Positions 578-53,386 of a DNA stretch of 64,000 nucleotides are shown here, piece by piece; position 1 is the first letter of the stretch; every line of letters begins with the position of its first letter. The stretch is from Halobacterium sp. CBA1132. Lineage in GTDB: Archaea > Halobacteriota > Halobacteria > Halobacteriales > Halobacteriaceae. The position numbers and the translations under genes were made by a program. The stretch is taken from contig NZ_BCMZ01000001.1 of NCBI RefSeq assembly GCF_001485535.1, forward strand, positions 2,046,001 through 2,110,000. Reading direction: 5' to 3'. Below the pieces are notes generated by a model. It saw only the letters and a list, made by a program, of their open reading frames with translations, was not told where the DNA came from and searched no databases.

Positions 578-919
578 ATGGACGGACGGCTGGCGCGAGT
601 CTGGCAGGTCGTCGTCGGTGTGACGCTCGTGAGCGCAGCGGTCGTGGTCGTGCTGGCGAGCACGGACCCGTCGTGGCCGGTGCCCGGCGTGTCGACGCTG
701 GCGGCGCTGGCCGGCGTGTTCGTGGCCGGGTTCACGCTCGCCGCAATCCTGCGCGTGCTCGCCGGCGAACACGACTACGGCGTCGGGAACCTCCTCGCCG
801 TTATCGGCTGGCTCCTCCTGCTGTTCGGCGAACTGTTCGAGAGCGAGGCCGCGACTGTCGGCGGTATCGCGGTCGTGCTCGCGGCGGGCTCGTACCTCGT
901 CTGGCTGGCCCTCGATTAG
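578..919 (+). CDS. Small four-helix membrane protein
   Basis: Protein of 113 aa starting MDGRLARVWQ. Four hydrophobic segments are visible near residues 8-28, 37-62, 67-86 and 91-112, separated by short charged loops, so it is a polytopic membrane protein. An in-frame start at 485 would add 31 Arg-rich residues that read as shadow sequence of the upstream gene, so I use the ATG at 578. The stop overlaps by four bases the end of a convergent small gene. No family is recognised and no function can be assigned. Confidence 0.75.
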   Translation: MDGRLARVWQVVVGVTLVSAAVVVVLASTDPSWPVPGVSTLAALAGVFVAGFTLAAILRVLAGEHDYGVGNLLAVIGWLLLLFGELFESEAATVGGIAVVLAAGSYLVWLALD

Positions 920-1050
920 AGCGGGCCGCTGGGGAGCGCGCGCAGCAGCGTCAGCGCGAGGACGAGCACCGTCAACAGCAGCTTCAGCACCCGGAGCACG
1001 CGCACCGCCCGCGACCGCCCCTCCGGCTCGTCACCCGAGTGTGCGTTCAT
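916..1050 (-). CDS. 44-aa single-helix membrane peptide
   Basis: A short reading frame of 44 aa, MNAHSGDEPEGRSRAV then a Leu/Val-rich helix (about residues 18-39) ending in SGPL. The charged N-terminus followed by one transmembrane helix is typical of small haloarchaeal membrane peptides. GC-rich third codon positions support coding. It is convergent with the preceding gene and overlaps its last four bases. The upstream stretch (1051-1085) is AT-rich (gtaaaataat) and could hold its promoter. Function is unknown. Confidence 0.6.
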   Translation of the reverse strand: MNAHSGDEPEGRSRAVRVLRVLKLLLTVLVLALTLLRALPSGPL

Positions 1051-1113
1051 ATTCCAGTCCAGGGAGTGCGGTAAAATAATTCCGTGTCTGCCGCGGGGTG
1101 AAACTGAAAGTGC

Positions 1114-1458
1114 TCAGAAGGTGGCGGCCAACAGGACCGCGCCGGCGACGCCGACGCCGGACAGCCAGCACACGACGTCGAGCGGGTTCGGAACGGGGAG
1201 GATGCGGTCTGGCTGGTAGTCCGACGGGTCGCCGGCCTCGGCCCCGACGAGGGCGCTTCCAGCCGCGGTCTCGATGCCGGCGTCCGTGGCACCGACGACG
1301 GCGGGGACGACCAGTAGCGGGACGCCGAGCGTCAGCACGCCGAGCAGTTTCAGGGGGAAGTCCACGAGCACGGCGACGCCCGCCAGCAGCGCGACGGTGA
1401 CGGGGCCAGCGACGACGCCGTAGCGAAGCGCCGCCGTACGGAGGGAGTCGCTCGCCAT
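1114..1458 (-). CDS. Hypothetical haloarchaeal membrane protein
   Basis: Protein of 114 aa. Two long hydrophobic stretches (about residues 12-34 and 36-58) are followed by a polar acidic loop and a third hydrophobic C-terminal segment (about 95-113), so it is an integral membrane protein. The start is MASDSLRTAALRYG; longer in-frame extensions are Arg/Pro-rich shadow sequence. It lies just downstream of hmgA in the same orientation with about 46 bp between, so it may be read through with hmgA. No family is recognised. Confidence 0.7.
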   Translation of the reverse strand: MASDSLRTAALRYGVVAGPVTVALLAGVAVLVDFPLKLLGVLTLGVPLLVVPAVVGATDAGIETAAGSALVGAEAGDPSDYQPDRILPVPNPLDVVCWLSGVGVAGAVLLAATF

Positions 1459-1504
1459 GCGCGGCAAATCGCGACGCCGCCGGAAATGTCTTCTCCTGAA
1501 CAGT

Positions 1505-2719
1505 TCAGCGGCCGAGCTCGGCGTGCGCCGAGGAGAGGTGGCGGGACGCGAGCGCGGCGAGCAGGCTGAGCTCACCGGCGAGCGCGCCCGCGGCGATGAT
1601 TTCCGCGAGCGCGTCGGCGTTCGACCCGGCCGGGTCGCCGCCACCGCGCACGCCGAGCACGTCCAGCGCCTCGCGCTGGGTCGGGAGTTTGGTGCCGCCG
1701 CCGACCGTTCCGACTTCGAGGCTCGCGAAGTTCACCGAGGCGTACAACTCCTCACCCCGGTCCTCGACGGTCGTGATGGCGTTCGAGCCCTCGACGACCT
1801 GCGCGGCGTCCTGCCCGGTCGCGAGGAAGACTGCAGCGACGGTGTTCGCGGCGTGTGCGTTGAATCCGAGGCTACCGGCCTTCGCGGAGCCGACGAGGTT
1901 CTTGCGCGTGTTCGCTTCCTCGATGGCCTTCGGGGTGGTGTCGAAGCGCTCCTCGACGACCTCTCGGGGGATGGTGACGTCCGCGGTGACGGTGCGGCCG
2001 CGGCCCTCGACGGCGTTGATGGCGGCGGGCTTCTTGTCCGAGCAGAGGTTCCCCGAGAGCGCGACCAGTTCCGCGGGCGTCTCCGCCTCGACGACCTCGC
2101 TGGCGGCCTCGGTGGCGATGGTGGCCATGTTCATCCCCATCGCGTCCTTCGTGTCGTAGGCGAACCGCAGGAAGACGTTGTCGCCGACGACGTACGGCGT
2201 GATTTCGGTGAGTTCGCCGTGACTCGTGGTCTCCTCGGCGGCCTCGCGGAGCGCGTCGAAGTTGTCCTCCACCCACTCAGCGACTTCGGCGCCCTCGGTG
2301 ATGTCCGCGACCCGGAACACGGGGGCGCGCGTCATCCCGACTTTCGTCACGCGGGCGTTCGCGCCGCCCGCCGCCGTAATCGCCGAGCAACCCCGGTTCA
2401 CGGACGCGACGAGCGCGCCCTCCGTGGTCGCCATCGGGAGGTAGAACTCGTCGTCGGCGCTGCCGCCCGAGACGGCGAGCGGGCCGGCGATACCGAGCGG
2501 AAGTTGGGTGCCACCAGTGAGGTTCTCGACGGCCGTCTCGGATGCGTGGTCGGCGTCGAACGTGAACGCGCCCGTGGCGTCGAGGCTGGCCTCGGTCTCG
2601 CGTTCGAGGAGTTCGCGGCGCGCCGCGGCCGCGGTGTCGGCGTCAGCGTGCTCCTCCAGTTCGTAGAGCCTGAGGTCGCCGGACTGCACGCGGTCGGCGA
2701 GGTCGGAGGCGTCGGTCAT
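1505..2719 (-). CDS. hmgA: Hydroxymethylglutaryl-CoA reductase (NADPH)
   Basis: Protein of 404 aa that reduces HMG-CoA to mevalonate with two NADPH, the committed step of archaeal isoprenoid lipid synthesis. Visible signatures of the class I enzyme are the substrate-loop region LPLGIAGPL (residues 73-81), the catalytic Glu in MATTEGALVASVNRG (E100), the NADP/Asp region KDAMGMNMAT (about 191-200), a Lys-containing SDKKPAAIN segment (about 227-235) and a C-terminal His-rich SRHLSSAHAELGR. The length is normal for the soluble archaeal form, with no membrane anchor. It is divergent from the amidohydrolase gene across about 107 bp. This enzyme is the classical statin target in haloarchaea. Confidence 0.97.
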   Translation of the reverse strand: MTDASDLADRVQSGDLRLYELEEHADADTAAAARRELLERETEASLDATGAFTFDADHASETAVENLTGGTQLPLGIAGPLAVSGGSADDEFYLPMATTEGALVASVNRGCSAITAAGGANARVTKVGMTRAPVFRVADITEGAEVAEWVEDNFDALREAAEETTSHGELTEITPYVVGDNVFLRFAYDTKDAMGMNMATIATEAASEVVEAETPAELVALSGNLCSDKKPAAINAVEGRGRTVTADVTIPREVVEERFDTTPKAIEEANTRKNLVGSAKAGSLGFNAHAANTVAAVFLATGQDAAQVVEGSNAITTVEDRGEELYASVNFASLEVGTVGGGTKLPTQREALDVLGVRGGGDPAGSNADALAEIIAAGALAGELSLLAALASRHLSSAHAELGR

Positions 2720-2826
2720 ACGTTGGCGTCGTCGCGGGGCGCCCTGAAGGTTGTCCTTTCGGCCGGTGTGCGGCGTCGCCGACCGCTTCCCGAACGTCTA
2801 AGCGGCCGGCCGCCCGCCGTGCAGAC

Positions 2827-4341
2827 ATGACTGCGGCAGCCGACCTCGTGTTGCGGAACGGCGAGGTCCACACGCTCGGCGACGCCGAGGAGACGTACGA
2901 CGCGCTGGCAGTCCGGGACGGCCGCGTCGTCGCGCTCGCCAACGACTACGACATCGAGTTTCTCGTCGGGACCGGAACGGACGTCCTCGACCTCGACGGC
3001 GGCGTCGTCCTCCCCGGGTTCGTGGACGCGCACACGCACATGGAGACCGTCGGCCAGTACGGCGTCCACGCCGACCTGCGCGGCGCGAGTGGCCCCGAAG
3101 AGGTCACCGAGCGCCTGCGAGCGCGCGCGGCGGAGACGGACGACGAGTGGGTGCTTGGGTACGGCTACGACGAGTCCGCGTGGGACGCCGACGACCTCCG
3201 CCAGTCTGCCCTCGACGCAGTGAGCGACGACCGGCCGGTGGCGGCCATCCGCGAGGACATGCACACCGCGACCGTGAACGCCGTCGCGCTCGACGAGTAC
3301 GGCGACGAGATGCCCGACAGCGACGTGCTCGGGGACGGCCGCCTCGTGGAGGACGCCGTCGAAGTCGTCTACGAAGCGACCGAACCCGACCCCGCGGAGA
3401 CGGAGTCGCTGCTGCGCGCGGCCCAGCGCGAGGCCAACGAGCGCGGCGTCACGGCGGTCCACGACATGGTGCGGCAGTCCCACGCGCCGCGCGCGTTCCG
3501 CGACCTCGACCTCGCGGGCGACCTCACGGTGCGCGTGCGCCTGAACTACTGGAGCGACCACCTCGACGCCCTCCTCGAAACCGGCCTGCGGACGAACCAC
3601 GGCTCCGAGCTGGTCGAGGTCGGGGGCGTGAAGACCTACACGGACGGGAGTCTCGGCGGCCACACCGCGAAGCTCTCGGAGCCGTACGCGAACGCGCCCG
3701 AGGAGACCGGGCAGTGGGTGGTCGACCCCGACGAACTCGAATCACTCGTCGAGCGCGCCGACGACGCCGGCCTGCAGGTGACCGCGCACGCAATCGGCGA
3801 CGAGGCCATCGACGCCGTGCTGGACGCCTACGAGGCCGCAAACGCCGACGCGCTCCGCCATCGCATCGAGCACGTCGAACTCGCCAGCGACGACGCCATC
3901 GAGCGCATGAGCGACCTCGGTGTGGTGGCGTCGATGCAGCCGAACTTCCTGAAGTGGGCCGGCGAGGACGGCCTCTACGAGAACCGCCTCGGCACGGCAC
4001 GCCGCGAGGCGACCAACCGTTTCCCGGCCTATCTCGACGCCGGTGTGCCGCTGGCGTTCGGCAGCGACTGCATGCCACTGGACCCGCTGTTGGGCGTCCA
4101 TCACGCGGTGAACGCGCCCGCCGAAACGCAATCGCTGTCGGTCACCGAGGCGCTGCGGGCGTACACGAGCGGCGGCGCGTACGCCGGCTTCCGGGAGGAC
4201 GAACAGGGCGCAATCACGAAAGGCGCACTCGCGGACCTCGTGGTGCTCGACGAGTCCCCGTGGGAGAACCCCGAATCAATCCGGGACATCGACGTGGCCG
4301 CAACGATAGTGGACGGCGAGGTCGTCCACCGCGCGGACTGA
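2827..4341 (+). CDS. Amidohydrolase family protein (YtcJ/exoenzyme-type)
   Basis: Protein of 504 aa with the amidohydrolase superfamily metal-dependent TIM-barrel. Visible features are the beta-sandwich N-terminus, the HxH metal motif in VDAHTHMETVG (about residue 70), a KTYTDGSLGGHTA segment with the candidate bridging Lys (about 270-282), His residues in ADDAGLQVTAHAIGD and HRIEHVE, and the catalytic Asp in FGSDCMP (about 413). The layout is that of the YtcJ-like branch, whose members hydrolyse N-substituted amides, but the substrate cannot be read from the sequence. It has its own promoter region opposite hmgA. The C-terminal VDGEVVHRAD closes the sandwich domain. Confidence 0.9.
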   Translation: MTAAADLVLRNGEVHTLGDAEETYDALAVRDGRVVALANDYDIEFLVGTGTDVLDLDGGVVLPGFVDAHTHMETVGQYGVHADLRGASGPEEVTERLRARAAETDDEWVLGYGYDESAWDADDLRQSALDAVSDDRPVAAIREDMHTATVNAVALDEYGDEMPDSDVLGDGRLVEDAVEVVYEATEPDPAETESLLRAAQREANERGVTAVHDMVRQSHAPRAFRDLDLAGDLTVRVRLNYWSDHLDALLETGLRTNHGSELVEVGGVKTYTDGSLGGHTAKLSEPYANAPEETGQWVVDPDELESLVERADDAGLQVTAHAIGDEAIDAVLDAYEAANADALRHRIEHVELASDDAIERMSDLGVVASMQPNFLKWAGEDGLYENRLGTARREATNRFPAYLDAGVPLAFGSDCMPLDPLLGVHHAVNAPAETQSLSVTEALRAYTSGGAYAGFREDEQGAITKGALADLVVLDESPWENPESIRDIDVAATIVDGEVVHRAD

Positions 4342-52424: not shown

Positions 52425-52880
52425 ATGAAGAAGATCACCATGTTCGAGATGCCGGACGACGACGACCGAGGCGTGTCCCCGGTCATCGGCGTCATCCTGA
52501 TGGTCGCGATTACAGTCATCCTCGCCGCCGTCATCGCCAGCTTCGTGCTCGGCTTCGGCGACTCAGTCAGCGAGAACGTACAGGCAGGGGCAGACATTAG
52601 CGAGAAGGATGACGGTACAGCTTCTGTGACTTGGATTAGCGAAGGAAATGCAGTCGAACTGAACGTCACAGCGGACGGAGTTGGGCCAGTGGTGCTCGAG
52701 GATGTGGGTGAATCTGCAACAATCGAATATGATTCTGCTGCCACTGCCGGAGCAGCGTCAGGAACGATTACCGTGAACAGTTCAAGTACAGTTCAGGTGA
52801 CGGTAACTGCGATTGGCAGCGGTGGTTCGAAGACGGTAGTCACCCAAGAAGAAGTCGAACTTGAAGATCAGTCCCCATAA
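52425..52880 (+). CDS. Type IV pilin (archaeal pilin_N / DUF1628-type)
   Basis: Protein of 151 aa. A charged leader [16 protein letters not shown] is followed by the H-domain [20 protein letters not shown], with a prepilin peptidase (PibD) cleavage site expected between RG and VSP. The rest is an extracellular domain rich in Ser, Thr, Gly and Ala, with repeats of beta strands and no Cys. The 3' two-thirds of the gene has lower GC and more A/T-ending codons than the 5' end, hinting at a laterally acquired variable domain. It functions in adhesion or surface attachment. A second ATG at 52440 is also possible. Confidence 0.9.
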
Positions 52881-53313
52881 CGGACTAACTACACCCCGAC
52901 CTCCGCTCTCGGGTTCATTTTATTGAGCGTCCAGAAAAGCAGCTGCTGAACGTAGTACCTCATTAATCGCAGATACCGCGATACTCAGCAGATGGTTAGT
53001 TCATGTTGTTGTCGCTGTTCTCGTAGCCCAAAGGACGGAGTTACGTAGGTGCATACTCAAAACAGCAGTAACCGCTTTGAAGCGTCCCGCTCGCGCTGGG
53101 GTTGTTCTCACTATAGGGACGTGCTACTATGATATCACGCGCTCTTCACTCGAAAACGCAGGAGAAGTGGGCCGGCACGAATATTGAATTACGTCGAGAC
53201 GTGCTCGCTTCGCTGCGCGCGCCTCGCCTCATTCAAATTCGCGCGGCCGCACACACCGCCGTCGACGGACGAACGACACGCTGGTCGTTCGTCGCGTCGG
53301 AATGGAGTAGAAA
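52881..53313. other. 433-bp AT-richer gap with tRNA 3'-end duplication
   Basis: No gene is supported. The sequence from 52910 to 53150 is AT-rich with TATA-like stretches (ttcattttattgag, actatgatatca). At 53167-53187 it carries a near-copy of the tRNA-Pro 3' end. The rest holds a GC-rich palindrome cluster (cgtgctcgcttcgctgcgcgcg). It looks like remnant mobile DNA next to the tRNA. Confidence 0.45.
53167..53187 (-). repeat. Duplicated 3' end of tRNA-Pro (candidate att site)
   Basis: Plus-strand gTGGGCCGGCACGAATaTTG repeats, with one inserted base, the 3' end of the tRNA-Pro gene at 53314-53333 (TGGGCCGGCACGAATTTG). Duplication of a tRNA 3' end is the hallmark of tyrosine-recombinase integration. 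The two copies are about 146 bp apart, so only a relic of any element remains between them. Confidence 0.6.
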
Positions 53314-53386
53314 TGGGCCGGCACGAATTTGAATCGTGGTTACGGCCACCCGAAGGCCGAAGGATACCAAGCTACCCCACCGGCCC
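53314..53386 (-). tRNA. tRNA-Pro (CGG)
   Basis: Read on the minus strand, a full cloverleaf of 73 nt: acceptor GGGCCGG/CCGGCCC plus A, D-arm with GGTAGCTTGGTATCC, anticodon stem CGGCC/GGCCG with loop TTCGGGT (anticodon CGG), and T-arm CACGA-TTCAAAT-TCGTG. No intron. It lies between the pilin and katG. Confidence 0.93.

Follow-up and report, generated by a model that had tools for sequence, protein, structure and literature searches.

A copied tRNA-Pro 3′ end in a Halobacterium genome borders a hairpin unit that recurs behind haloarchaeal tRNA genes

Introduction

What does a second copy of a transfer RNA (tRNA) 3′ end, lying just behind the gene itself, record? Mobile DNA docks chiefly at the ends of tRNA genes, and a 3′ end that occurs twice is taken, as a matter of routine, for the scar of an element. 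The question arises at the gene for tRNA-Pro(CGG) (53314–53386, minus strand; located with ARAGORN) in the 64,000-nucleotide (nt) stretch of Halobacterium sp. CBA1132 contig NZ_BCMZ01000001.1, positions 2046001–2110000, analysed here (the window), where the original prediction saw in such a repeat the usual footprint of integrase-mediated insertion. We find it instead to be the border of a recurring and constrained hairpin unit: the same layout stands behind many tRNAs of this 3.0-megabase haloarchaeal genome (G000; other G numbers are relatives) and of other haloarchaea, in places as tandem rows, and with a hairpin, S, that varies among them. In haloarchaea the scar reading would often mislead; many of these repeats would be parts of a small unit that is structured and subject to selection.

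The copy at tRNA-Pro(CGG) and the unit that it closes

The duplication claimed for the tRNA-Pro(CGG) 3′ end is real. The direct copy (‘dir’; 53168–53189, minus strand) comprises the T-loop and the acceptor 3′ strand, and reads TGGGCCGGCACGAATATTGAAT against TGGGCCGGCACGAATTTGAAT at the gene end, with 15 nt exact before one base is inserted in the T-loop part. Within the whole window the shared 15-mer is restricted to the tRNA-Pro end and the copy, and the alignment scores 37, as against 22 for the best among 60 shuffled queries. Neither chance similarity nor lack of conservation accounts for the repeat: chance is ruled out by the shuffled-query scores together with zero or low control counts at other tRNAs (see below), and two related species, G002 and G009, retain the copy. 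Empty sites are seen in G004, G001, G010 and other relatives.

Absent from the original prediction were an inverted T-arm at 53231–53240, two hairpins, and the matching layout at many other tRNAs. Outward from the tRNA, and all on the minus strand, the unit of about 145 base pairs (bp) consists of a trailer immediately 3′ of the gene (TTTCTACTCCATTC, 53300–53313), a hairpin H1 predicted by folding (CGACGCGACGAACGACCAGCGTGTCGTTCGTCCGTCG, 53263–53299), the inverted T-arm (‘inv’; GAATTTGAAT), the hairpin S (GCGCGCAGCGAAGCGAGCACGTCT, 53190–53230; class A, with a GCGAAGC triloop core), the direct copy and a second trailer (CTTCTCCTGCGTTTTC, 53152–53167). The pairing of inv extends here into the acceptor copy, to 53248. 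The second trailer resembles the trailer of unit-free tRNA-Pro loci, and CTTCTCCCGCATT-like trailers are likewise found 3′ of tRNA-Pro in unit-free genomes. H1 is identical at tRNA-Pro in G002 and G009, with similar H1 hairpins behind other tRNAs, and G000 has further class A S hairpins at Val(CAC) and Gln(CTG). The stretch as a whole folds at −77.4 kcal/mol, compared with −59.4 kcal/mol for shuffles (z −4.6).

Recurrence within the genome and across haloarchaea

Under a strict rule, 18 of the 43 tRNA genes of G000 are followed within 400 nt by a copy of their own 3′ end, with controls of 0/43 upstream and 0/294 with the ends of other tRNAs; under a relaxed rule the count is 23 of 43 (controls 0/43 and 6/296). 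A shuffled-query test places 23 of 44 tRNA genes above shuffles for a downstream own-end copy, that of His lying at +1 kilobase (kb). Most copies in G000 are preceded by both an inverted T-arm and S, and several stand in rows: tRNA-Val(GAC) is followed by four tandem units, whose T-loop copies all contain an additional C (TTCACAAT); three consecutive copies follow tRNA-Glu, and two each follow Leu(TAG) and Gly(TCC).

One extra base in the T-loop copy (TTCACAAT or TTCAATAT), unpaired against the inverted arm, is a feature of several tRNAs (L053, L046, L052, L047 and the window copy at 53168–53189). A second type of insertion, hairpins ending in GCTCAG or GCTCAC ahead of TCCC, occurs inside or beside the 3′-end copies of G000 Ala(CGC), Gly(CCC), Ser(GGA) and Arg(CCT) (L040, L041, L065, L055), and in three of these four tRNAs sits between repeated CCC.

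The exact palindrome GGATTTGAACC-N15..45-GGTTCAAATCC was found in 28 of 117 related genomes, and a version with 8-nt arms in 45 of the 117, representing 29 of 46 genera; the reversed control pattern was found in none in either case. All 28 exact-palindrome haloarchaeal loci that were fetched sit 35–276 nt behind a tRNA. From a collection of 84,980 species 108 stretches matched, and tRNA position was determined for the 80 that were listed; without 12 bacterial cases and one from Woesearchaeota these leave 67 from haloarchaea. Among these listed matches, a tRNA stands 31–262 nt upstream of 60 of the 67 palindromes (median 70; 23 tRNA types), and its acceptor is matched at 7/9 or better in 50 of the 60. 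In only one of the 67 does a tRNA stand within 300 nt but on the wrong side, and ARAGORN found none nearby for the remaining seven.

Outside Halobacteria, a palindrome of the same layout lies 37 nt behind a Woesearchaeota tRNA-Ser(CGA), with an acceptor match of 9/9 (L163). Bacterial contigs, including Bifidobacterium, carry unrelated palindromes of the tRNA 3′ half, running from variable loop to acceptor in inverted and direct form, without an upstream host tRNA (L082-L087, L156, L157, L225), and seven pattern matches in viral contigs proved to be symmetric palindromes of bacterial appearance, again without an upstream host tRNA.

As to what S might be, derivation from a tRNA was set aside, its longest tRNA matches being no longer than those of shuffled S. 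A known RNA family was likewise rejected: at six loci no Rfam model matched over the unit above its gathering score, and in a further scan the sole match overlapping the palindrome was the tRNA. We recognised no description of such units in the open-access literature, although the subscription literature lay mostly outside this search and absence is therefore unproven. It is only with reserve that we propose that haloarchaea hold an undescribed modular class at tRNA 3′ ends, made of rows of exchangeable hairpins that are bordered by copies of the host end, inserted at the T-loop, variable among species, and selected as a regulatory or protective part.

Constraint and turnover

If these units were decaying remnants, their divergence between species should tell. 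In four orthologous units of G000 and G002, those at Pro, Val(GAC), Val(CAC) and Met, 29 of 575 sites differ, or 26 of 486 once the copy is excluded; among four-fold sites in the five genes beside tRNA-Pro the figure is 172 of 721 (Fisher p 2.6e-22). The comparison points to constraint rather than decay and is approximate for the Val(GAC), Val(CAC) and Met units, the tRNA-Pro locus being the sole source of the synonymous yardstick. The 200 nt past each unit diverge by 32–38% between the same genomes, and at Val(CAC) one change is compensatory (GCGAG/CTCGC to GCAAG/CTTGC). Judged by this divergence, shared units are under strong constraint, though units are gained, lost or exchanged among species: G000 has a unit and G002 none at Phe, Tyr, Arg(TCG), Asp and Asn; G000 has more units than G002 at Val(GAC), Val(CAC) and Met; and the two genomes carry a different S at the same site at Ser(GGA) and Glu(TTC).

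Two loci suggest how units arise. At Asn, the unit-less flank of G002 from the T-loop onward aligns with G000 from the copy onward, so that the inserted block would consist of 3′ end, trailer, H1, inv and S. The second Met unit has arms of the common type (GGATTTGAACC and GG), whereas its host tRNA has AGTTCAAATCT, which places the junction at the T-loop. Plausibly, then, a hairpin (CC-S-GG) enters a tRNA end at its T-loop, and upon entry the segment running from the T-loop as far as the trailer, or as far as H1, is duplicated; the tRNA would remain intact by virtue of that duplication.

An H1-inv-S module is also found within the T-loop of a tRNA-Cys on Haloarcula halophila plasmid NZ_CP119561.1. 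There, predicted tRNAs form an array (858-3993 of stretch L147, which has 23 of them) beside a gene for a TROVE (Ro60-like) protein, and another tRNA (about 3330-3460) has its T-arm split by a second hairpin type ending in GCTCAG.

Structured RNA trailer or DNA hairpin?

Folding is strand-specific and favours the tRNA-sense strand. RNA folding gives z −3.5 for sense and −1.7 for antisense, and among 134 palindromes a GNA triloop core stands on the sense strand in 94, on the antisense strand only in 5, and on neither in 35 (of 137 palindromes, L163, L195 and L226 were omitted as not haloarchaeal). Stem covariation was measured in two sets of 12 S hairpins each, a 61-nt set from which L105 was dropped as belonging to another class and a 67-nt set from which L208 was dropped as an expanded form; both sides of a pair had changed in 23 of 132 cells (shuffle mean 6.7, 0/500) and 13 of 156 (3.2, 0/500), almost exclusively among Watson-Crick pairs. 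The inverted arms track the host tRNA in their T-loop and T-stem part.

We take the duplicate at tRNA-Pro to be the 3′ border of a hairpin cassette that trails the tRNA and that may have originated by insertion at the T-loop. Our favoured, though tentative, reading is that the cassette would be transcribed along with its tRNA and act as a structured 3′ trailer. Counterparts are small RNAs linked to tRNAs and the tRNA trailers that RNase Z releases, and the position and strand of the unit would likewise permit co-transcription; the units differ in their weak acceptor pairing. Fragments of tRNAs from Haloferax are among the material of PMC3432209. If transcribed, the units would form a new class of trailer RNA.

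Four observations weigh against the trailer reading. Units are patchy, with 2 of 32 tRNAs in G002 having one by strict count and four more best-matching at about 4 edits. G-U pairs are scarce in S (37/1253, against 360/4014 in tRNAs folded alike; p 2e-14; L163, L195 and L226 again omitted), so that a DNA palindrome fits better than an RNA helix. Pairing of the inverted part with its own acceptor (score at least 6) occurs in 26 of 185 cases, compared with 124 of 2050 for other tRNAs, only weakly above chance though an RNase Z minihelix needs it. Lastly, T-run terminators showed no difference and give no sign that transcription runs past the unit.

The chief rival, possible but doubtful in our view, is that the unit acts as DNA, as a single-stranded hairpin site for a recombinase (attC-like or attP-like) at which a T-loop crossover inserts or exchanges S; if so, the units would be a new kind of recombination hairpin. 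The G-U-poor stems would suit such a site, as would the GNA triloop cores, GNA mini-hairpins being very stable in DNA, and so too would the chimeric T-loop junction at the second Met unit, the interspecies exchange of S at Ser(GGA) and Glu(TTC), and the module in the T-loop of the plasmid tRNA-Cys. Yet the units are gene-less, no integrase is linked to the tRNA-Pro locus, and a purely selfish site is not expected to show constraint when shared. Nor is a phage or plasmid carrier of S borne out: the one S class queried gave no match in 50,697 phage records and one match in 72,556 plasmid records.

The attC core consensus is GTTRRRY. By inspection the unit arms TTTGAAC and GTTCAAA fit neither this nor its complement, and no PF00589 protein, the broad family, was found near tRNA-Pro, IntI itself not having been specifically searched. 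Integron attC sites, which PMC9668308 treats in archaea, are alike in being imperfect palindromes with unpaired bases and a variable tip, and in forming rows of cassettes, but the units lack cassette genes, are anchored at tRNAs and leave the core unmatched. Among dispersed intergenic hairpins with a strand-specific fold, REP elements and the IS200/IS605-derived PATEs that appear in PMC3119063 are comparable, but differ from the units, which stand behind tRNAs with host-matched arms; a Y1 transposase as mover was rejected, PF01797 giving no hit in the palindrome carriers G003, G009 (87% complete) and G012.

It is also conceivable, though improbable, that replication template switching between T-arms, which at dozens of loci offer 11 nt of microhomology, assembles and exchanges units that have no selected function, palindrome correction keeping the arms alike. 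Copies that begin at the T-loop, the almost identical duplication at the second Met unit, and the G-U-poor, nearly Watson-Crick-only covariation are what such a process would leave; however, S classes are shared by distant genera, their mismatches and polarity conserved, and units are much better conserved than the adjoining spacer.

We give as little credence to the view of the original prediction that the unit is what decay has left of one or more integrated elements, an attR scar. Integration sites in tRNA genes reportedly often lie in the T-loop half, and the direct 3′-end copy and the hotspot behind tRNA-Pro, with an att-like 3′-end copy at +2.5 kb in G007, are in keeping with a scar; a similar short length with the same inverted T-arm and hairpin at many tRNAs, divergence of 5% against 24%, and stem covariation are not. 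Duplications of the tyrosine-recombinase type, reviewed with archaeal integrases in PMC8371274 and seen as partial tRNA copies of Haloquadratum prophages in PMC3119063, share the direct copy from the T-loop and the intact tRNA, but the units add an inverted T-arm, hairpins, tandem rows and constraint, with no element or integrase between the copies.

An insertion hotspot and a neighbouring pilin

The original prediction offered either a former integrated element or an insertion hotspot, and the latter stands. The next conserved gene, AAA_33, lies about 1.4 kb from tRNA-Pro in the window; 11 relatives within the genus have it at 905, 1139, 1204, 1222, 2175, 3963, 4860, 5496, 6303, 7226 and 12336 bp (in a twelfth, G006, the gene lies outside the stretch fetched), and this span of 0.9–12.3 kb marks the 3′ side of tRNA-Pro(CGG) as an insertion hotspot. 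The footprint of a large element is not supported, because the 124 bp between gene end and copy hold structured, constrained sequence found at many tRNAs. Neither an integrase nor a long insert is seen at the window site: the broad PF00589 family is absent from the sequence fetched behind tRNA-Pro, up to 20 kb in each of the 12 relatives, and its nearest member on the window's own contig is about 317 kb away.

Outside the unit lies an archaeal type IV pilin gene (52425–52880, plus strand; PF07790, 9.7e-16). The gap and the pilin tail are AT-rich as claimed, with G+C fractions of 0.509 and 0.514 against 0.685 for the window, but the suggestion of a relic is not supported. A PF07790 protein adjoins tRNA-Pro also in G002, G009, G011, G008 and G021 (4.8 kb off in G012) and shares a C-terminal motif, so that the pilin is an ordinary neighbour and no relic; that motif, TVVTQEE/TVVAQEE, is kept in G002 and G011, with a variable middle. 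No pilin match was found in the fetched stretches of G001, G003, G004, G005, G006, G007, G010, G013 and G022. In G002 a pilin gene also stands immediately behind tRNA-Arg(TCG) (L133), and pilins may thus favour tRNA-linked sites. Other species (L010, L013, L014, L017, L020) have a different conserved end behind tRNA-Pro, TATACCC...TTTTCC...GACACTTAGCGGCCGCT, which in some runs into a zinc-ribbon-like reading frame and is probably the edge of a mobile element.
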